This document shows positions 52,709-63,848 of a stretch of DNA of 64,000 bases, in pieces. The stretch is from the NCBI GenBank assembly GCA_009840635.1, contig VXNL01000071.1, forward strand, positions 1-64,000. The letters are read 5' to 3'. Position numbers and translations under genes: made by a program. Below the pieces are notes generated by a model that did not search any database, was not told the origin of the DNA, and saw only the letters and a list, made by a program, of their open reading frames with translations. Origin of the DNA: Acidobacteriota bacterium. GTDB lineage: Bacteria; Acidobacteriota; Vicinamibacteria; Marinacidobacterales; Marinacidobacteraceae. Position 1 is the stretch's first letter. Every line of letters begins with the position of its first letter.

Positions 52709-52722
52709 CACCCATCGGGACC

Positions 52723-52760
52723 GCCGGTCTTCAGACCGGCACCGCCGCGCGCAGCGCGGC
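52723..52760 (+). repeat. Dispersed double-hairpin element, copy 7
   Basis: First hairpin arms GCCGGTCT and AGACCGGC (52723-52740), second hairpin arms GCCGCGC and GCGCGGC around GCA (52744-52760). It starts 15 bases after the leuB stop and is followed 48 bases later by another copy. Confidence 0.8.
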
Positions 52761-52796
52761 GATAATCGCGCACCGGTGCTCCTCCGCATGGCGTAC

Positions 52797-52844
52797 CCGG
52801 CTTGGAACGCCGGCTTCAGCCGGCACAGCCCGCCGAAGGCGGGC
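52797..52844 (+). repeat. Dispersed double-hairpin element, copy 8
   Basis: Leader CGGCTTGGAAC, first hairpin GCCGGCTTCAGCCGGC (52809-52824), second hairpin GCCCGCC, GAA, GGCGGGC (52828-52844). The leader and first stem equal copies 1 and 2. Confidence 0.8.
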
Positions 52845-53059
52845 GGCGAGACGAACCTCACTCGCCACGATGGCGCGCGCCAACGCACCCGGGGTGGCGA
52901 CGAACCGCCCGCGGCCCTGCGGGCCGCTGCGGACCCACCTGTAACACGCTGCTTATTCTTTAGGTTATGGGTTATCCGCAGAATTCGATATCAGACTCGC
53001 TATCACTGACAAGGTCCGCTGACGGTACGAACTGTAATCGGCAACTCCGGGGTAAGCGG

Positions 53060-53656
53060 TAAGCGTTCGGTCGTGCCGGTATGGAGCCAGCATCGGCTTC
53101 CGCCTAAACCCTGCAAATGGTGTGGATCGTGGAGTCCGGGGTTCAATGGGTGAGATCACCGCTTTCGTCGGCTTGGCGATAGCGGGGTTCCTACTTGGCC
53201 GGCTGTTCCGGCGGTCTTCGAAGTGACACCCAGCCATCGGCCGCGGTCGAGTCCACTCGCGCATCGCCATGCGTCTTGGCTCCGACGAGAGCGAATGTCG
53301 AAGCCCGGTCCCCGTCCCACATACCGGCTCCACCGAACGCTTACGGTAAGCGGGTAAGCGTTTGGTCGTGGGTGTATGAGGACCGACAACGGGGTGGCCG
53401 GTGTGCGAACCCGAGCAGCGGAGAAAGGGAGCGGGGACGAGTTGCAGAGGGTAGAACTCGCCGCCCGCAGCCGTGTGGGCGCTTCGGGATCGGTGCCAAA
53501 AGCGTTGTGGCGCAAGGAGTTGGCGGCGATCCGGGAGGCGGAGAATGCGATGGCGGTGGAGGGCGTGCTGGTCGGCCTGCGTCTGTTTCTCCAGACGATG
53601 ACGGCGCGGCCGGATACGTCAACCCCATGTCTATATCCCCTCCACCGAACGCTTAC
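53060..53656. repeat. Two tandem cassettes bounded by 24-nt inverted repeats
   Basis: Four related 24-nt sequences alternate in orientation: 53060-53083 forward, 53321-53344 reverse, 53354-53377 forward, 53633-53656 reverse. The first pair matches at about 22 of 24 positions when one is inverted. All contain GTAAGCGTT or its complement AACGCTTAC. The forward copies are preceded by a second partial GGTAAGCG. They delimit two units of 285 and 303 bases, 9 bases apart. The interior sequences of the two units are not similar by eye. Confidence 0.7.
53146..53226 (+). CDS. Possible 26-residue single-span membrane peptide
   Basis: The ORF MGEITAFVGLAIAGFLLGRL plus a basic end FRRSSK has a short hydrophobic helix and a positive C-terminus, the shape of type I toxin or regulatory peptides. 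It lies inside the first inverted-repeat cassette. The ribosome-binding site is weak (GGGG, 5 bases before the ATG). With so short a frame, chance is a real alternative. Confidence 0.25.
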   Translation: MGEITAFVGLAIAGFLLGRLFRRSSK

Positions 53657-53684
53657 GGCCTGCCGGCCTGCGGGTTGGCAGTCT

Positions 53685-56600
53685 TTAGGTTTCTTCGAGC
53701 GACTCGACAAGCAGCCGGTCGGCGAGGACATGGACCCGCTTTTTCCGCTCGGCAACCCGCTCCCCGATCTGCGCGCCGAGCTGCGTGGGATTTCTGCACA
53801 CGAGGAAATCCCACTCCCCCATCCTTCCCCAGCGGTTGACCGCCCGTACCCAACGTTTCGCAGCTTCGTGCTTCGCCGGTGTTTCGGGAGGCTCCATTCC
53901 CTTGATCTCGACGATCAGGCGGACGCCGTTCGCAAGGCTCACGATGAAGTCGGGTTCGTAACCCCGCTCGTTTCCCTGGAACGAGTAGGGGATCACGAAC
54001 TCCAGGCGTTCGTTGCGGACGAAACTGGACACCACCCCGGCCTCGGCAAGCTGTTCGAGTTGTCCGGTAGCGGCCTGCTCCCAACGCGCCGTGTCGCAGG
54101 CCACGAAGTTCACGTGGCTCGCGGTGGCGGCGACGACCGGCTTGACCGTCTTGAAGTACACGCTGGCCGTGCTGCCGGAGGGCCGGTAGCGGTTCAGTCG
54201 GGGGAGTTCCGGCGGTTCCCCGACGGCATCGTCGGGCCGAACGGCGGCGGACAGCAGGCCGACGATCCGCTGCTGGTAGATATCGAGTCCGACCTCTTCC
54301 GGCGCCATGCCGTTAAGGTCTATGCGGTCCCGGAGGTAGTCGCGGACGATCTGCAGCACCTGAGGAAAAAGGGCCTGCCGCGACACCCGGCAACGTGACC
54401 CGTTTCCGTCGAGCCAGCCGGCGGACAGCACCCGTACTACTCCGGCGGCAATCTCGAACGCCAAGGTCTGTGGGTGGACGGAACGGTAGTACTGAGTCCG
54501 GTCCACTCTCCGCATGTCGAATCCGCCGTACTCGATCTGGTGGCCGACCTTGTACCCCACCTCGGGCCGCATCGCCGTCGTCTTGGGAGCCGTCATTCGA
54601 TCCAACACAGTCGGCTCCACCTCACCCACGTCACACACGATCCGGTTCCGCGCCGGAGCGGTCACGTATCCCTCGACCACCGGGAAGCGAATCTCCAAAT
54701 GACGCCTCTCCGGCAGTGCCATCACCTCATGTTTCGGACGATCTTCCTTTTGGTGTTGTCCGGGGGGGCGGCCCTTGAAGGGAATCAGGGAGAACGGAAT
54801 CCCGAAGACATCCACGTACTCGGGGGTGAGCAGTCCGGTCTCGGGATCCGGGGTGTAGTCCATGCGGCGAAGCCCGCGCCCCACGACCTGTTCGCAGAGG
54901 AGCTGACTGTTGAAGGCGCGTAGCCCAAGGATCTGGGTGACGTTGTTGGCGTCCCAGCCCTCGCTCAGCATGTTCACACTCACCACGCAACGCACCCGTT
55001 CTCCGGCCCTGCCCGGCTTTCCAACGGTGGAGACCGTTCGTCTCAGTCTCTCGGCCGCCTGCTTGCGGCCTTCCTTCACCTGACCGCTTTCGGCCTCCTC
55101 CAGCAGTTTCGAATCAATCCGCAAGGTGACTTCCACACCGCTCGTGTTCCAGAACTCGTCGAAACCTCTGAGCCCAGTGCCGAATTGCTTGACCTTCTTT
55201 GGTTTGGCACCGGACTTTCGTTGCTGCCGACGCCCGGCGGACCCCGGTACGCCGTTCCCGTTTTCGTCTGGCGCAACGAGGGTCTCGCCGGAGATCATGC
55301 GGTGGAAGTGACTTGCGATGTCGGTGTTGTCGCACACCACGATCATGACCGGAGGGGTCCGGTCTTCCCCGGGGGCTGCGTCCTGTACCTGCCGGAACCG
55401 CTCCCGCCACTGCCCCGCGAGTGTCAGCAGCGCGTCCTGCGCTTCCCGGTAGGCCGCCTCAGGTTTCAGCTTGCCCCCAGGTAAGCGGTCGTCCGGACCC
55501 AACGCCTCCTGAACCCGCTGCCAGAGCCGAAAGTACTTCGGGTCAGGCCTTCCGGAGTCATCCCGCGCGGGGAGCCGGGGAATCTTTGTGATGCCGGACT
55601 CGATGGCATCCACAAGGCTGAAATCGCTGACGATCCACGGCAACGGCGATCCCTCCGGATACCCGCTGCCCTGGATGTAGAACGGTGTCGCGGAGAGGTC
55701 CACAGCGAGCCCGATGCCGCACGCGGCGTTTATGCGATCCAACCCCTCGACCCAGACGGTTGCCGCTTCCCGTTCCCGCTTCTCCTCGTCGGTGAGCTTG
55801 CCGGCAACGGCCGCCGGCCGGTAGGCGTGGTGCCCCTCGTCGTTCAACACCATAAGCGGCTCGTCGTCCCAGAGATCGCCGAGGCGGGCGCGGGCGAACG
55901 CCTCCGGCGTCTCCTCCCCGAGGTCGCCGACCTTGGCGGTGCCCACGCGGATTTCCGGCGACTCCCGGTTCAGTAGGTGCCAGTTGGAGACCAGCACCCT
56001 TCCCTTCACCAATTCCGGCCGCATCGGGGCGGGAACGAGATCGAACTCCTCGTAGTAGTTTCCCGCAGTGCCCGGTCGGAGCACCGCGAGGCGTTCCCGG
56101 ATGGTGAGGTTCGGGCAGAGGACAAGCACACGGCGGGGATAGCGGGGGTCGCCGGGTTTGCTCCCCCGGTTGCAGAAGGCCCAAGCAATGAGCATCGCCA
56201 TGACCACTGTCTTGCCGCTTCCCGTCGCCATCTTGCACGCATACCTCGGGATCGCCGACAACGCCTTGTCGTGCGGAACGTCGGCGAGCTTCGGATGCTG
56301 CGCCACCTTCGCGACCCAATCCGCGGGCCGCGGGTTGTTCCCTTCGCAGAGCGTCCGGAACTCCTCCGGCGCGAGTCTTGGCTTCCAGCGAGGGCGTTTT
56401 CTCGCCCGCAGGATCTCCTCAAGGTAGAGGACCGTCTCGACGGCCTCCAGTTGGCAGAAGAACAGGCGACGGGGCCGATCATGCCGCCACCAGTGGCGCA
56501 GCAGCCGTTTCGTTGTCTCGGATGCGTTCTGCCAACCCGAGTTCCTCCAACGGCGCACGTCGTAGCGCAAAGCGTTGACGAGCGGCAGGTCGTCGACATC

Positions 56601-56798
56601 CTCGTCGGGGAGCAGGAGGCGCTGGGCGCTTCCGGCGCGAACCGATCTGAACCAATAGCTGGCGTCCCGCCGCGACGCTATCCGCTCCGGGCGTGGGCGG
56701 TCCCGCGTGTAGAGCCAGTGCTCGTTCGGCTCCTCGTAGGGGGAACAGAGGATAGGTTGCTCGACCGGTTCGACCGGGATTCCCAAGTCTTCCGGCAT
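53685..56798 (-). CDS. Type III-like restriction endonuclease (BPTD_3080-type Res)
   Basis: This 1037-residue enzyme is an SF2 helicase/translocase fused to a nuclease. Walker A is MATGSGKTVVMAML near residue 191, the DExH box is LNDEGHHAYRP near 318, DLSATPFY follows, and motif VI is EQVVGRGLRRMDY. A C-terminal PD-ExK nuclease is seen at YEPDFIVSLANGVRLIVEIKG near residues 949-965 with Asp, Glu and Lys present, so the nuclease looks active. It resembles the BPTD_3080 family, which works with a large Mod. It starts 10 bases after the mod stop, so the two are one operon. Predicted role: cleaving unmethylated foreign DNA. Confidence 0.9.
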   Translation of the reverse strand: MPEDLGIPVEPVEQPILCSPYEEPNEHWLYTRDRPRPERIASRRDASYWFRSVRAGSAQRLLLPDEDVDDLPLVNALRYDVRRWRNSGWQNASETTKRLLRHWWRHDRPRRLFFCQLEAVETVLYLEEILRARKRPRWKPRLAPEEFRTLCEGNNPRPADWVAKVAQHPKLADVPHDKALSAIPRYACKMATGSGKTVVMAMLIAWAFCNRGSKPGDPRYPRRVLVLCPNLTIRERLAVLRPGTAGNYYEEFDLVPAPMRPELVKGRVLVSNWHLLNRESPEIRVGTAKVGDLGEETPEAFARARLGDLWDDEPLMVLNDEGHHAYRPAAVAGKLTDEEKREREAATVWVEGLDRINAACGIGLAVDLSATPFYIQGSGYPEGSPLPWIVSDFSLVDAIESGITKIPRLPARDDSGRPDPKYFRLWQRVQEALGPDDRLPGGKLKPEAAYREAQDALLTLAGQWRERFRQVQDAAPGEDRTPPVMIVVCDNTDIASHFHRMISGETLVAPDENGNGVPGSAGRRQQRKSGAKPKKVKQFGTGLRGFDEFWNTSGVEVTLRIDSKLLEEAESGQVKEGRKQAAERLRRTVSTVGKPGRAGERVRCVVSVNMLSEGWDANNVTQILGLRAFNSQLLCEQVVGRGLRRMDYTPDPETGLLTPEYVDVFGIPFSLIPFKGRPPGQHQKEDRPKHEVMALPERRHLEIRFPVVEGYVTAPARNRIVCDVGEVEPTVLDRMTAPKTTAMRPEVGYKVGHQIEYGGFDMRRVDRTQYYRSVHPQTLAFEIAAGVVRVLSAGWLDGNGSRCRVSRQALFPQVLQIVRDYLRDRIDLNGMAPEEVGLDIYQQRIVGLLSAAVRPDDAVGEPPELPRLNRYRPSGSTASVYFKTVKPVVAATASHVNFVACDTARWEQAATGQLEQLAEAGVVSSFVRNERLEFVIPYSFQGNERGYEPDFIVSLANGVRLIVEIKGMEPPETPAKHEAAKRWVRAVNRWGRMGEWDFLVCRNPTQLGAQIGERVAERKKRVHVLADRLLVESLEET

Positions 56799-56808
56799 GG
56801 ACGCTGCG

Positions 56809-59800
56809 TTAACGCCGCTCCGGTTCCGCTGGGGTCAACGTCAGCACCCGGAGTCCCTCGATACCGCGGGGATCAATGACCTTGACTGCCACGCGCCAGG
56901 AGTCGCCAGCGCCAAGCCGCTCCGGACGGCGGAACCCCAAGCTCTGGAAGCCGCTGAGCGCAGCGAAAGACTCCCGGTCAGTGAGCCCCAGATCGCCCAG
57001 CGCGCGGGCAAGCCGATCCCATTTGTTGCGATCCGGGAAAAACGCTTGGCAGATGCAGAACGTCCGGCCATCGTAGTCGGTGTCGAGGAACCACGCCGCG
57101 ACCCGGTCGCGGTTCGTGGGGAGCACTTGGTTCCCCACCGGATCGTAGACATCCATCCCCTCCATGGTCACCCGGCATTCGCCATCTTCTCCGACCTCAG
57201 GATCGCTCACGCGCGGAGCGGCGAACACGGTGAAGATCTGGCTTCCCGGCTGGGTCTTGAGCAGTTCTTCCATGGCCACGTCCGGGCTGATGAGGGCCAT
57301 GTGGCACCTCACGTCAGGATGCGCGTCGTCCTGGACCGCTTCTTGGGCCGCTGCGTCGAAGCCGAAGGCAGCAAACACAAGGTCGTCGTACCCCGCCCGA
57401 TTTGCATCGCGGAGTGCCCGCTCCACCTGGAGTGCGGTGAGGTTGCCTACCTCGGGGCCGACACTCACGGCGACCCGACGGTTCCCGTTCTCCCATTCCC
57501 CCTCGGCGTGGAGGAGGGCGCCTATCGCGGCTTCCAGCCGGGCGAAGCGCATTGGAGACTGCTGCGGGAACTCAACACCGCTCGCGCGCAGCAGGCGGAT
57601 CACCTTGGCGATATGCGCCTCGCCGTTTAGGACAGCCGCTTCGGTGGCGTCCTCGGGGAACGACTCAAGCGCCTCTGGAGCGCCGCCGATTGGGGAATCC
57701 GGCCCCTCTTCGAGCGCGATGACGCCCTCGACGCTGAAGGGGCCGGCGACGCGGACGGCACCCGACTCGATGTGGGGCTGGTCGACGAGTTCCTCGGATT
57801 CGGCGTTCGCGGCGATACAGGCGTTCACCTCGTCCATCTTCGCCCGCCAGGCGGTCCGGTAGGCGCCGAGCGCCTCGCGGAGCGGCACAGGCCAGTCCGG
57901 GTCGGCGTCAAAGGGGACCTGCCAAGGGCGCCACGAACCGTTAGGAATATGTAAGCCGTATTTCCGAATCTGGGTCGCCGTGAGGGCCCTCAGCGGGCTT
58001 CGCGCCGACTGCGGCCGGACATCCACAAACGAGGTCCCCGGCAGTAGCCAGCGCCTTACATCGGCATCGGAGACGCCGAGCGCGCCCTGTTCGCGGTGTT
58101 TGGTCAAGAGCTTCCCTACGAGCTTTGCCTTCGTCTCTTCCGTGACGAGTGTCGCGGCCGCGTTCAGGTTGTCCAGAGCCGCCGCGAGGTGGGGCTCGTG
58201 CTTATCGAAGATGGAGTCGAGGGAGACGTTGTGGGCAATGCCCTTAAGGGTCACGCGCGGAGCCGTCTTGAGGTCGAGCGTCGCCGGTTCCTCAGTGGCG
58301 CGGCCCGCATGGTCCTGCGCCGAGAGCCACGGCCCATCGGGGTTGCGTTGCAAGTCCCTGGCGTTCGGTTTACGGAGTCGGTAGTTGTCGAAGGTCGCCG
58401 TCATGAGCCGGTGTTTCGCCAAGGTCAGGGCCACGCGGCTCGTATCCACCGCGATCCAGCGGCGGCCCCACTTCTCGGCCACGAAGGGGGTCGTCCCGCT
58501 GCCGCAGGTGGGATCGAGGACGAGATCACCGGGATCCGTGGTCATCAAGAGGCAGCGTTCGACGACCTTCCGGGCGGTCTGCACGGAGTAAATCGGCTGC
58601 TCTTCGCCCTTAGTGTCCGTCCAAAGGTTGGAGATTGCGGATCTGCCACGATCCTCCCAGAACACGACGCCTCCCACGGAAGAGCCCGTTCCCGAAAAAA
58701 GCCGCTCCGCCCTAGCCAGCCGATCCAGTCCGGCCGGCACGTCAAAACGCCAATGTTTGTTGGCGCCACATTTTCTCGGCTGTCCCTGAAAGCGGTAATC
58801 CCGGCTACGAGACGGATCCGGATCCTGGCTCACGATCGGGTAGTCCACCCGCACCCATCGCCAGCCATCCCGCAACAGACTTGTGAGTTCTTGTGAGTTG
58901 AAGCGACCAGCCGAGACGATTTCTCCTGACGGGGCCATCAGGCTCCGGTATTTGGAGTCCGTAACGGTGTCTGCCCGCCCCGCGGCCAGCGGAATGACCT
59001 TCTGGTGTTCCGCGTCCTTGGCGTACCAGAGCAGGTAGTCGTGCACTGACGCAGTGGGTACGGTGGCGCCCTTCTTCTTGAAGATGATGGTCACGACCGC
59101 GTTGTCCTTGCCGAAGACCTCATCCATCACACACCGGACCCGATGCACGTTTTCGTCGCTGATCTGGACGAAGATGCTCCCCGTATCGGCAAGCAGCTCC
59201 CGCGCCATGGCGAGCCGATCGCGAAGGTACGCGAGGTAGGAGTGGACGCCGAGCGTCCAAGTATCCCGGTAGGCTCGCACCATCTCCGGCTCGCGGGTTA
59301 GGTCCTGCTCCCGATCCTTGACATTCCGGCGACCTAGGTCCGGTTGGAAATTGGATCGGAAGCTGATCCCATAGGGCGGGTCCACGTAGATCATCTGGAC
59401 CTTACCCGCGAGATCCTCGTGGTGCGCAAGGCTCGCCATTACCTGGAGTGAGTCCCCGAGGATGAGCCGGTTCGTCCAGTCCACGTCGTGCCGATAGAAC
59501 TGGACCGCCTTCGCGTAGTCCAACTCAGGGTCCCCGAAGAGGCTCCTCTGCACATCCTTCCGGCGGACCGCCCGGAGGAGTGCCTCGGTCGAGACCCGCT
59601 CGTGCATGTGGAGCGCGACCGGATCCACCTCGAACCACGGCCGCTCGCGCTTGCCCGCCCACTCGAGCCACGGCTCGTGCCGCCGAAGCGCCTCGGCGAG
59701 GATCTGGGCCTCTTCCGCATTTAGCGGCCGCTTCCGCGCTTCCCGCACGATGTCCGGCAGCCGGTCCGCGTCGTCAGCCTCGGGCGACGACCGCAGCGCT

Positions 59801-59946
59801 GGCGGAAGATGCGGGTTGAACCAGTACCGGTGGGGAGCCTCGCTACCGACTCGCCCGTGCGACTCCAAACCCGCCGGCGGCAGGTTCTTCCGCTTCGCCC
59901 GGTGCTGGAGCGCCCCTACTGGCTCCCGGGAAGCTCTCGGCGACAT
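56809..59946 (-). CDS. Type III-like site-specific DNA-methyltransferase (Mod)
   Basis: This 1045-residue adenine-type methyltransferase of the beta order has motif IV IYVDPPYG near residue 187 before motif I VLDPTCGSGTTPFVAEK near residue 478. After motif IV comes YLRDRLAMARELLADTGSIFVQI, and the linker before motif I is long. Methyl transfer from SAM to adenine N6 is predicted, protecting host DNA and giving the site specificity. It is about 400 residues longer than a typical type III Mod; the extra C-terminal part (from about residue 560) has no known motif by eye and may help target recognition or the Res contact. Res follows after 10 bases. Confidence 0.9.
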   Translation of the reverse strand: MSPRASREPVGALQHRAKRKNLPPAGLESHGRVGSEAPHRYWFNPHLPPALRSSPEADDADRLPDIVREARKRPLNAEEAQILAEALRRHEPWLEWAGKRERPWFEVDPVALHMHERVSTEALLRAVRRKDVQRSLFGDPELDYAKAVQFYRHDVDWTNRLILGDSLQVMASLAHHEDLAGKVQMIYVDPPYGISFRSNFQPDLGRRNVKDREQDLTREPEMVRAYRDTWTLGVHSYLAYLRDRLAMARELLADTGSIFVQISDENVHRVRCVMDEVFGKDNAVVTIIFKKKGATVPTASVHDYLLWYAKDAEHQKVIPLAAGRADTVTDSKYRSLMAPSGEIVSAGRFNSQELTSLLRDGWRWVRVDYPIVSQDPDPSRSRDYRFQGQPRKCGANKHWRFDVPAGLDRLARAERLFSGTGSSVGGVVFWEDRGRSAISNLWTDTKGEEQPIYSVQTARKVVERCLLMTTDPGDLVLDPTCGSGTTPFVAEKWGRRWIAVDTSRVALTLAKHRLMTATFDNYRLRKPNARDLQRNPDGPWLSAQDHAGRATEEPATLDLKTAPRVTLKGIAHNVSLDSIFDKHEPHLAAALDNLNAAATLVTEETKAKLVGKLLTKHREQGALGVSDADVRRWLLPGTSFVDVRPQSARSPLRALTATQIRKYGLHIPNGSWRPWQVPFDADPDWPVPLREALGAYRTAWRAKMDEVNACIAANAESEELVDQPHIESGAVRVAGPFSVEGVIALEEGPDSPIGGAPEALESFPEDATEAAVLNGEAHIAKVIRLLRASGVEFPQQSPMRFARLEAAIGALLHAEGEWENGNRRVAVSVGPEVGNLTALQVERALRDANRAGYDDLVFAAFGFDAAAQEAVQDDAHPDVRCHMALISPDVAMEELLKTQPGSQIFTVFAAPRVSDPEVGEDGECRVTMEGMDVYDPVGNQVLPTNRDRVAAWFLDTDYDGRTFCICQAFFPDRNKWDRLARALGDLGLTDRESFAALSGFQSLGFRRPERLGAGDSWRVAVKVIDPRGIEGLRVLTLTPAEPERR

Positions 59947-60092
59947 GGGGAAATCGTAGGCGAAAGGCAGCCGACCTCAGCCCACCCGCCGACGGAGCAG
60001 CCCCGGGCTGGCGCTGACCCCGTGCACCACCGAACCAATCCAGTCTGGCGGAAGAGGGCCGTCGAGACCCTCCGTCCTGAAGTGCGATCCCT

Positions 60093-63000
60093 TCAGGGAC
60101 TCTCCTCCTCGTTGTCGCTCGCCCTCGAAGCCGAGTACCACTCCCTGGCGAATCGGACGACGCAAAGCGGATCCTCGTCTCCTGCCTTGGTCCAGGATTC
60201 GACTATTTCGTCGTCTCCTCGGCCAGCACCCGTGATGGCCCAAGCCAGCCACACGCACCAGTACCGACGCAGCGGAAGTTCGTCCGCAACCCACGGATCC
60301 GCCGAATTGGTCCGATATGCGAGTTCCGACCGCAGCCGTCTCAACCCCTCGACGACGCGCGAATGGATGGCCGCGATGAACTGTGGGTTCCCGCCCTCGT
60401 AAATGGTGCGGGCCACCCTCAGTGCGCCGATTAGGCCGCTCTGTTGGGTCGTTCCGACTGCTACACCGATGTCCCCCACACTCTCTACCGAAGGCGGACG
60501 CATGAGGGGTTCTCCTGTCTGACCGGCCTTCCTGATCCACCAGTGGAGGGCATTCCAAGCAGCCAGACTGACCCGTCCGTCGGGAGACCTCGTCCCCAAT
60601 CGCAGCCGGTCCTCTGCTTCCGTGCGATCCGCACCACCGAGAGCGCCCGATGCCGCGACCATCAGGAATTCGTTCTCGGGACTTGCCCATTGTTCGGCTA
60701 TCGGGTGACGACGCCCCGTAACGGGTTGCGCGTTATCTGCCAGCCGATGCAGGACCGAGTCTGGGGCGCTCTGGTGAGTCATGACACCCAACAGAAATCG
60801 AACCGCGCGGTCGCGAGATGTGCCACGCATCAAGCGCTGGGTTGACTCGTGACGAAGCCATTCTTCCACCTCCCCCCAGAACCAACCCCGCTCATCTGCC
60901 GAGAGACGGATGACTCGGTCGCGGAGATGATCGGGATTCCAAGCCGCGGCGACGTTCCGAATTGTCTCTTCCCGCCTCTCGGCACCCGCCTGCGTCGCAT
61001 TCGGACCGATCCATGTGGCCCGAAAGCGTTGAGCCGCCATTCCGGGCTCCGGCTCCGGGAGGACCAGATACACCCAGTCGTCTACGTTTCGGATCTTGGG
61101 CAGTCCAATCGGTCCTTGATGCACAGTGCCCCACAGGCTGAGAGCCACCTCCTGTTCTTCAGTCTCGGTAAGGAGGCGCCTCCAAGCGATCGGATTCAGC
61201 CGGTCGAAGGCTAGACGCCGAGCATCGTCACTGCCACGAAGGGCCGTGCAGATCTGGTGTACGCACGACGCCCAGACAGAGTCGTCGATATCACGCCGCT
61301 CAATTCTGGGTAGCCCGCCGAGCAGGAGATCGCCGGGATCTTTGTCTGTGATGAACGCGTCGTCCGGAATAGACGCCTGAAGAATCTCGGGGACGGCGCG
61401 TGTACGTGATTCGAGGTCCATGGCGCCCCAACTGCGTTTCCAAAGGCGGGTGATGCTCGACCAGAACCCGTTGTCCACCCAGCGCCGTGATCTGCGGTAT
61501 TGGAGTGCCCATCTAAAGACCTCAGATGCCGGGGCCACTCCGTGGCGGACAACGCATCGCGACATGATTTCCACGGCCGTTTCGGCCCGCTGCCGGACAA
61601 AATCGTCTTCCGTAACACCCGGAGCCCACTTCTCCAGAAAGTGGTCGCGTGCGCTCTGGGAAGTTTCGAAAAGCGTTGAGGCTTCTCGGTCGGACATCCT
61701 GGCGACGTTCGTCTGGGAAACCACGGCGTCCAGGACCTTTTCGTTCCCGGACCCACTCACTAGGAGCAGGCGGACAGCGTACGCCGGGAAGTGCGGCGCG
61801 AAGACCCGCGCCGCCCGGTCGATGTGATCGCTCACGATTCGAATGCCTGGAATACCGGATGGGAGTCCCGAAAGCTCGAGGAGCCGCGTCAGACGCCGAG
61901 CGGAATGAAACGACCGGCTCTCTGCGTTGGAGAGCGAGAAACGGTTGACTCGCCCAAGATCGAAGGTCCAGGGCGAATCTTCGCGCTGATCATGCGTCAC
62001 TTGTCGCACGTAGGCCTCTAGGTCATAGCGAGCATCGGAGTCGTACGGTGCCAGCCGCGCCCAGAGGTCGTCATCGGGTTGCCAGGATCTGGTGCCTTCT
62101 CGCAACTCATCCCACCACTGCGCCCAGTTCAGCGCGCGGCGCCAGTGGAGCGCCCAACCGAGTCGTGCGGCGGTCAGAACGCAGCCCTCACGCGCCCAGG
62201 CCTGCTCGGCACGTTGGAGGGTTCGAAGCGCCAGGTCCCGACCAGTCTCAGGATCGCCGGCCCCCACCGTCAGGGCAGCCTTCCGCAGGGACCACATCGG
62301 GTCTCCATCCGCCGTATCCCATGCATTCAGGCGTTCACCCAGGCCAGCAAAATCCTGCTGCGCGAGTTTCCAAAGGCATCGCTCGTGCTGGAGCCGATGC
62401 AATGCGGGTGCACCGGGCTGAACGATGTCGTCCAACCGAGCATCCCATTCGTCGAATTTGGCTCGGTCAAGATCGTGGCGAGAATCCGTCAGGAGCGCGA
62501 GCATCAACGCTGTGCGGTCTTCATCTATCTCGCTTCGTCGCTCGTCGGACAGTGTGCCGTTCTCGTCGAGGTGTTCCTCGATCGCCGTGAGCGTTCCGTT
62601 CACCGCCTCCGCCAGTTCCGGTGTCAACGGATCCATCAACCGTTCGATTCGCTCGACCAATTCCCGCGCGACGGCCAGCCGATCGGTCGAGCCCATCTTC
62701 GGCAATGTGCCCAGCATCGGCTCGACCCACTCCGATGTGTAGCTGGACAAATGGAAGTGCTTCGAAAACGGAAGGATGGGCCAGCCTGGATAGACGCGCC
62801 GGTTGTGGCGCCAGATGGTCGCCGCTTTCTTGACTTGATCGGTCAACGGCTCCGCGCTGGAACTCTGAGAAGGTGCCCCGGGTGCTTCGAGCGGTTGGTC
62901 CGATGGAGCAACCGGCAACGGTATACCGGCCGCTATGTTCTTAGGCCTTTGCGGCGGAGGGAACGGCCAACGCTGTTCCCTGGTTTCGCCCGCCTCCAAC

Positions 63001-63848
63001 GAGCCCAGAATCCACTCAGTTGCGGCGCGATACCGGGCCTCGAGGCTCGGCACCTCGGCGAGTTCAGGAGCCAGATCGATCGGAACGACACCGCGCTCCT
63101 CAAGCATGAGCCGTGTCGGCAGATCCAAATCCAGAAAATTCGCGAGATAGAGCCGCGGCGCTGCGGGTCCGAGGTGGTCTCGGACCCAACCGCACCAGTG
63201 AAAGAAATTGGGGTCGTCCCCCGAGAAGCCGACCAGCAGAAAGATGGACTCCATCAGGGCCTGCTGAACCGTATTTACCAGTGGGGCGAACTTCGTCGGA
63301 TAGGTGCGGTAGTCCTCCTCGGTGACCACGAACGGTCGGCTTGACGGAAACGAACCGTGGAGTTTGACGATACGCGGCGCGACTGTCGTCACAAGATCCG
63401 CGGCCCGAAAAACCCGTTGATAGGTCCGGCTGGAAGTTTCTTCTGACGCCTTCTCCAGCAAGGTGTCCCAATTCGTTGTGAAGACATCAGCCCACGGCAG
63501 ATCCAGCAGCCTCTTGTGGACCCGGCCGGGCTCCCCGTCGGGGACGTGGGAAAGCAGGAAGGAATCCAGAGCGGACTGGCCAAATGTCGCCTTGTACTGC
63601 TGAGCCAGGCGGGAGCAATCGCGGGCAGTAACGGACTCCTTCCGTGAATCTGCCCCTGAATCGGGGTTCCCGCAGCGAAGCTCTTTCTGAAGCAACTCCG
63701 CGAGCTCGCCCCAGGTAGGTGGGCGCGCATCCGTCGGATGGCTCGACCCCGCCTGCCGACTGAGGCCGGCGCCCACCATGACGCAGGCCCCGCGCTGGGG
63801 CCGCTTCCATAGCGCCTCCCGGATGTGGACGATGTGGCGCGCATTCAT
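60093..63848 (-). CDS. Large SIR2-domain protein, candidate NAD-depleting defence effector
   Basis: This 1251-residue protein has an N-terminal SIR2-like domain (about 1-290): CVMVGAGLSRQAG near residue 25, VFTTNWDTLLEKAS near 122, RIVKLHGSFPS near 162, and LLVGFSGDDPNF near 200. These are the GAGxS, TTNxD, KLHG and GxSxxD features of defence sirtuins such as ThsA and DSR proteins, which hydrolyse NAD+ in response to phage. The long helical remainder has no recognised domain and would be the sensor. An Arg/Trp-rich repeat-like middle (WAREGCVLTAARLGWALHWR) is visible. It is 146 bases upstream of mod on the same strand. Phage recognition and target are unknown. Confidence 0.85.
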   Translation of the reverse strand: MNARHIVHIREALWKRPQRGACVMVGAGLSRQAGSSHPTDARPPTWGELAELLQKELRCGNPDSGADSRKESVTARDCSRLAQQYKATFGQSALDSFLLSHVPDGEPGRVHKRLLDLPWADVFTTNWDTLLEKASEETSSRTYQRVFRAADLVTTVAPRIVKLHGSFPSSRPFVVTEEDYRTYPTKFAPLVNTVQQALMESIFLLVGFSGDDPNFFHWCGWVRDHLGPAAPRLYLANFLDLDLPTRLMLEERGVVPIDLAPELAEVPSLEARYRAATEWILGSLEAGETREQRWPFPPPQRPKNIAAGIPLPVAPSDQPLEAPGAPSQSSSAEPLTDQVKKAATIWRHNRRVYPGWPILPFSKHFHLSSYTSEWVEPMLGTLPKMGSTDRLAVARELVERIERLMDPLTPELAEAVNGTLTAIEEHLDENGTLSDERRSEIDEDRTALMLALLTDSRHDLDRAKFDEWDARLDDIVQPGAPALHRLQHERCLWKLAQQDFAGLGERLNAWDTADGDPMWSLRKAALTVGAGDPETGRDLALRTLQRAEQAWAREGCVLTAARLGWALHWRRALNWAQWWDELREGTRSWQPDDDLWARLAPYDSDARYDLEAYVRQVTHDQREDSPWTFDLGRVNRFSLSNAESRSFHSARRLTRLLELSGLPSGIPGIRIVSDHIDRAARVFAPHFPAYAVRLLLVSGSGNEKVLDAVVSQTNVARMSDREASTLFETSQSARDHFLEKWAPGVTEDDFVRQRAETAVEIMSRCVVRHGVAPASEVFRWALQYRRSRRWVDNGFWSSITRLWKRSWGAMDLESRTRAVPEILQASIPDDAFITDKDPGDLLLGGLPRIERRDIDDSVWASCVHQICTALRGSDDARRLAFDRLNPIAWRRLLTETEEQEVALSLWGTVHQGPIGLPKIRNVDDWVYLVLPEPEPGMAAQRFRATWIGPNATQAGAERREETIRNVAAAWNPDHLRDRVIRLSADERGWFWGEVEEWLRHESTQRLMRGTSRDRAVRFLLGVMTHQSAPDSVLHRLADNAQPVTGRRHPIAEQWASPENEFLMVAASGALGGADRTEAEDRLRLGTRSPDGRVSLAAWNALHWWIRKAGQTGEPLMRPPSVESVGDIGVAVGTTQQSGLIGALRVARTIYEGGNPQFIAAIHSRVVEGLRRLRSELAYRTNSADPWVADELPLRRYWCVWLAWAITGAGRGDDEIVESWTKAGDEDPLCVVRFAREWYSASRASDNEEESP

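Follow-up and report, generated by a model that had tools for sequence, protein, structure and literature searches.

Putative IS66-family MITEs stacked at an apparently preferred landing place just inside the attachment-like end of a defence-gene island

Results

The two units that adjoin the res-like gene of the window, by which we mean the whole stretch of 64,000 nucleotides analysed here, are very probably IS66-family MITEs that would be moved in trans, favour one landing spot, stack there and probably leave it again. As MITEs they are ordinary elements of a known kind; it is their targeting behaviour that is apparently new, and the rule of their placement together with the tracks of tandem 8-bp copies is what a specialist would not expect. 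The ends, the duplications, the copies, the empty and occupied sites, the fixed spacing and the tandem 8-mers on which this reading builds are observed at the level of the sequence.

The first-pass annotation had described four alternating repeats that delimit two units of about 290 bases, separated by 9 bases and directly past the 3' end of res. These pairs were found again, the four copies alternating in orientation and being related rather than identical, with direct relations among them as well; the array starts at 53059 instead of 53060, the inverted pair of unit 1 is 92% complementary over 25 nt and that of unit 2 79% complementary over 24 nt, and the units measure 286 and 303 bp (Table 1). 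The 9-base gap (53345-53353) consists of 8 + 1 bases, and its first eight, GGTAAGCG, repeat those directly before unit 1, so that unit 1 stands between the two copies of a perfect 8-bp target duplication. Unit 1 is thereby positioned 1 bp outside the end of unit 2, plus its duplication. At the two sides of unit 2 there is no matching target-site duplication (TSD; GTAAGCGG versus GGCCTGCC), and the tandem 8-mer on its outer side is a possible excision scar or possibly what remains of unit 2's own duplication. The adjacency to res was likewise borne out, as unit 2 ends 28 bp before the stop of this minus-strand gene. Both units are under about 600 bp, have TIRs, are multi-copy and contain no transposase gene, all of which is expected of MITEs, a TSD being present at unit 1 only. 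A single long element reaching from unit 2 to an end at C68:71637 was rejected since the flanks do not match. A coding role of the interiors was rejected too: most 300-bp copies have open frames, yet several of these are open simultaneously, which their G+C content would predict.

Table 1. Features of the island end, the two units and the island cargo in the window
Feature	Position	Strand	Basis
Conserved island-end flank, type I, ends at docking spot	52934..53058	+	flank model positions 3-127, E 6.4e-15 (not independent, the flank belonged to the training set)
Attachment-like core GTAACACGCTGCTTATTC, island left end, outer reference for distances	52941..52958	+	core profile 18.1 (one of the seven sites used to build the profile)
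Unit 1 TSD copy 1, GGTAAGCG	53051..53058	.	
Unit 1, 286-bp IS66-family MITE (probable)	53059..53344	.	TIRs and 8-bp TSD
Unit 1 left TIR GTAAGCGTTCGGTCGTGCCGGTATG	53059..53083	+	repeat search and end profile
Unit 1 right TIR, minus strand reads GTAAGCGTTCGGTGGAGCCGGTATG	53320..53344	-	repeat search and end profile
Unit 1 TSD copy 2, GGTAAGCG	53345..53352	.	
Unit 2, 303-bp IS66-family MITE (probable), 300-bp subfamily	53354..53656	.	full-length copies elsewhere
Unit 2 left TIR	53354..53377	+	repeat search and end profile
Unit 2 right TIR	53633..53656	-	repeat search and end profile
Tandem 8-mer GGCCTGCCGGCCTGC beside unit 2, outer side	53657..53671	.	run 7, period 8
res, type III-like restriction gene, island cargo	53685..56798	-	PF04851; REase_III models
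mod, type III-like DNA methyltransferase gene, island cargo	56809..59946	-	PF01555; MTase_III E 9.7e-143
SIR2-domain gene, DSR2-like, island cargo	60093..63848	-	PF13289; Dsr2 model E 3.1e-135

In about 0.78 Mb of fetched DNA, a 25-column profile of the ends scored above 18 bits at 119 places, as against 0.0 with column-permuted profiles, and the repeats of the window are therefore far beyond chance; above 20 bits the fetched loci still contained 118 ends, and the permuted profiles yielded 0. The ends recur throughout the window's own genome and are present in seven of eight genomes of the genus, where the reversed control pattern gave 0 matches; they were not found in two genomes from other genera of the family. 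When one genome per species was scanned, 25 stretches matched the 24-nt sequence exactly, under record titles that name Acidobacteria or Acidobacteriota, Vicinamibacterales, Terriglobia, Gemmatimonadetes and Gammaproteobacteria and that include MAGs, those of Acidobacteria being, we presume, sponge-associated. Perfect 8-bp TSDs flank unit 1 and 19 other elements (two on contig C30, one on C31 and 16 further ones of 203-3,202 bp), and natural empty sites hold a single copy of the eight bases. That the units arose by local duplication, or are chance inverted repeats without mobility, might be argued from the mere four copies within the window itself, but the dispersed copies in many genomes, the perfect duplications and the empty sites have already refuted it and leave it scarcely any probability; the first-pass annotation, which had proposed querying related genomes and seeking duplications and empty sites, had named a local duplication without wider meaning as the outcome that would overturn its reading.

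The interiors have relatives of their own. Unit 2 aligns over its full length with copies of 298-304 bp in four genomes (G006, G007, G008 and G009) at 78-84% identity, and unit 1 with copies in G000 (C72:5198-5474) and in G004 (contig C65) at 77%. Likewise, G009 has, at four places, copies of a 325-bp element of the window's own genome, with identities of 89-96%. The earlier statement that the repeats and not the contents are conserved is thus right in that the two interiors differ from one another, but each of them represents a multi-copy family. Elsewhere, arrays with two or three different MITEs per spot were seen (L131 9479-10379, L132 48-593), in one of which the same duplication, CAGCGTTC, surrounds successive elements.

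The TIRs begin with GTAA, as IS66 ends do (typically with GTAAGCG), and agree with the published ends GTAAGCGTCCGG... and GTAACCGTCCGG... (PMC12888890), just as the duplications agree with the 8-bp repeats made by IS66 elements (PMC3281130; PMC12898284). A probable autonomous element with the same ends lies on a Terriglobia chromosome (L083 989-4190; 3,202 bp; TSD GATATCCG) and encodes a 743-aa IS66 transposase (DDE_Tnp_IS66, PF03050, E 1.9e-53; NCBIfam IS66 equivalog, 259 bits versus a cut-off of 180). Its second ORF contains a DruA domain (PF14236, E 4.3e-37), and apart from these two ORFs no TnpA or TnpB was recognised in its 3,202 bp. Such a DruA-domain (DUF4338) gene adjoins an IS66 transposase gene within one transposable element both here (L083 1026-1904) and at a second locus (L287 9027-9905); otherwise, DruA is familiar as a defence protein of Druantia. 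Both small and longer copies in the genus and in Vicinamibacterales retain pieces of transposase or DruA next to their ends, and the MITEs therefore look like internal deletions of such elements. In the window's genus only fragments of the IS66 transposase were seen, and no intact one (PF03050) was found in the window's own genome, an incomplete assembly of 110 contigs. Mobilisation of the MITEs would occur in trans. Dispersed copies, the ends, the TSD of unit 1 and the probable autonomous relative together give substance to the earlier suggestion of a miniature mobile unit; its remark that no named element has this layout no longer holds, MITE and IS66 being named classes.

Three longer relatives have IS66-type ends and a TSD round one unrelated ORF and are without transposase: L148 5297-6905 (TGCGGGCC; 496 aa), L108 9259-10667 (GCGCGCTC; 296 aa) and L104 2288-4329 (ATCCGAAC; 385 aa). 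At 1.4-2.0 kb, with IS ends and duplications enclosing a passenger gene, they correspond in their sequence organisation to mobile insertion cassettes (MICs). Searches of PADLOC, Pfam and NCBIfam gave nothing convincing for the three ORFs, and we therefore do not call them defence genes.

The units might alternatively encode a structured or regulatory RNA, or serve as a terminator for the neighbouring res gene, and both indeed fold strongly (z -5.1 and -3.0), with a terminator-like hairpin at 53660-53681. The fold is, however, what the inverted ends and the G+C content lead one to expect, covariation in the family alignment is almost nil (-1.46 of -102.87 kcal/mol), the units match no Rfam family, the scan for sigma-70-like promoters was empty, terminators are as numerous as in shuffled sequence, and relatives of the units adjoin unrelated genes. 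We consider an RNA function very improbable on these grounds, and the proposal of the first-pass annotation that the units are a source of long hairpin RNAs was given up.

The units lie just inside the left end of what appears to be an integrase island. In five congeners an amidohydrolase gene comes immediately after leuB, and no ends of this kind lie between the two genes, whereas the window reads leuB, attachment-like flank, two MITEs, res-like gene, type III-like methyltransferase gene and DSR2-like gene. Contig C68 terminates inside a tyrosine integrase gene, of which it holds the C-terminal residues, and contig C47 starts with most of the remaining, N-terminal part, followed by the amidohydrolase gene; we infer that the two join into one island with one integrase gene. 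From the adjacency in the congeners and these contig ends it follows that leuB and the amidohydrolase gene were parted by the entry of an island of about 25-26 kb (window 52941-63848, together with L025 and L166). The integrase stands at its right end and the MITEs just inside its left. A comparable island in G004 has the order tgt, attachment flank, mod and res, and its spot is empty. In another docked island end of the window's own genome an AAA ATPase gene is paired with a DUF3226 gene (L021 5967-7636; PDC-M38 / AbiLi-like models). Just outside the attachment cores lie REP-like palindromes (window 52716-52840), of which congeners have many copies; this hints that REP sequences adjoin the places where these islands enter.

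The integrase has Arm-DNA-bind_3 and Phage_int_M domains and would be the enzyme that moves the island. Could it also move the units, as integron-like gene cassettes? Such a view would fit the tandem arrays, which occupy one end of integrase islands and in which some units carry one gene, but 8-bp duplications and long TIRs point to a DDE transposase, the ends match those of IS66, and the arm-binding domain is that of island integrases and not of an integron integrase; we consider this reading very improbable.

In the window, 118 bp separate the first base of the core from the first base of unit 1, and flanks homologous to the one between them were found in other loci. Seven sites of the window's own genome served to build a core profile (GTAAGTCRTTGATTAT-like), with which stretches of other genomes were then searched, and at about 20 loci on which it had not been trained the outermost end has the core on its outer side at a distance of 118, 119 or 120 bp; about 0.02 such cases are expected by chance over some 110 ends (background 0.05 matches per kb). 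The seven sites themselves have distances of 118-120 at four and of 125, 125 and 136 at three. In many cases the outer sides of the elements, both of them, are conserved island-end sequence, which falls into three flank types, one of them also present in a Gammaproteobacterium (L074), and the empty sites reconstructed from occupied ones match natural uninterrupted sites in many islands. A conserved outer flank that is part of the transposon was rejected, because the duplications and the empty sites place the flank in the island. Of 78 distinct spots, the flank models give about 35 as occupied and some 43 as empty, two rows having been reassigned to the occupied ones on visual inspection, where the end overlaps that of the flank model; as these models were trained on occupied sites, only the core test, run on other genomes, and the empty sites are free of this dependence. 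GGGAAC often stands just before or at the duplication.

Elements of different families are docked at the same place in both orientations, flank type, element and orientation being combined in at least 15 ways (7 of the 39 docked elements being assigned by less than 30 bp only), and their duplications differ among the core-spaced loci. Many of the insertions are therefore independent. They could instead be IS66-family MITEs that inherited their place, one early insertion having been carried along as the islands diversified and the elements having been swapped by homologous recombination. The type III flanks of G006, G007 and G008, whose 300-bp elements all point the same way and have diverged to an extent comparable with that of the flanks, speak for this, as do the shared ends of array members, which would be able to recombine; but the variety of duplications, families and orientations does not, nor do the empty sites, whose single copy of the eight bases is the state before insertion. 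We regard common inheritance as an unlikely account of the spot as a whole. Nevertheless, since the type III cases share element, orientation and place, independent events are fewer than occupied spots; some of these insertions may be inherited and could descend from a single one. To us the docking spot thus looks like a preferred landing place where IS66-type elements come and go, and the spacing between core and end would reflect target choice.

Next to the ends, 21 of 135 flanks show tandem repeats whose period is 7-9 and whose run is at least 8, 0.8 being expected, and most have period 8, the length of the duplication; GGCGCCCA is present three times at L026 and GACGCCGG three to four times at L101. 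Among Vicinamibacterales, MITEs with same-type ends have two- to three-fold tandem 8-mers as well (L297 8310 and 8491, L294 7220), and such tracks are consequently not limited to the window's genus. Some empty spots also carry tandem repeats (L233, L235), and one has 10 extra bases (L303); a run of at least 8 is found in 2 of 45 empty spots taken alone, a small excess that is suggestive only. These 8-mers are probably duplications left by excision, although repeated insertion into the duplication, followed by loss of the element, would look alike.

Discussion

The observations are best accommodated by the following sequence of events. The MITEs would be non-autonomous derivatives of an IS66-family element that encodes a transposase and a DruA-domain protein, and on their ends, GTAA[GC]CGTTCGGTCGTG...GTAT, a transposase would act in trans and duplicate 8 bp. 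Landing would take place in a tyrosine-integrase island with defence genes, about 118-120 bp inward of its attachment-like core, and elements of several families would insert there repeatedly, a later one entering beside an earlier one so that a tandem stack results. Since tandem 8-bp copies accumulate beside the ends, the elements probably leave again. What determines the spot might be the flank, if it is recognised as such, the local sequence (GGGAAC) or the integrase complex, and the DruA-domain protein is a candidate helper. A remnant of cassette exchange, which the first-pass annotation had considered, is at most a possibility; what fits the data is that elements were added, and probably also lost, at a single spot.

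But what would follow if the spacing is indeed due to target choice? Integrase islands would then have a second, transposase-based route of gene gain and loss, with a docking place that leaves the attachment site intact, and the growth of defence islands could be tested at a single defined place, of which nature offers dozens of examples, both empty and occupied. In the tandem 8-bp tracks one would be able to read the history of insertion and excision, and the DruA-domain protein is placed inside a transposon, beside its transposase. It is conceivable, though on balance rather doubtful, that IS66-family elements, with DruA as candidate helper, choose the spot at about 118-120 bp, enter and leave it repeatedly, bring cargo and so help to build defence islands stepwise, which would amount to targeted transposition, a behaviour for which this family is not known, and possibly to an origin or first role of DruA. 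A literature search that covered few subscription papers gave no description of docking beside island attachment sites by IS66 elements, nor of a link between DruA or DUF4338 and IS66.

With the IS66 family the elements share the GTAA[GC]CG ends, the 8-bp duplications and, in the probable partner, DDE_Tnp_IS66. Because the L083 element has no recognised TnpA or TnpB, the comparison is with the single-transposase ISBst12-like group, and not with three-gene IS66, and further with the passenger-bearing tIS66, IS66 passenger genes being known from fosZ in ISPa75 (PMC12888890); the partner here differs in having a DruA-domain gene. MICs were identified in Bacillus cereus (cited in PMC3281130). The 1.4-2.0-kb relatives resemble them in their IS ends, duplications and unrelated ORF and in being without transposase, and differ in that their ends are of IS66 type; the window units themselves have no passenger gene. 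In behaviour only, the docking resembles that of Tn7 and CAST, as Tn7 inserts at a set spacing from the sequence that is recognised, largely irrespective of the bases at the point of entry; here, however, no Tn7-like genes were seen and the effect of distance is deduced from positions only. With MITEs such as MITEAba12, finally, the units share a size of 200-330 bp, TIRs, duplications, the lack of a transposase gene and multiple copies, but they are set apart by their clustering at one spot of integrase islands and by the flanking tandem repeats of duplication length.
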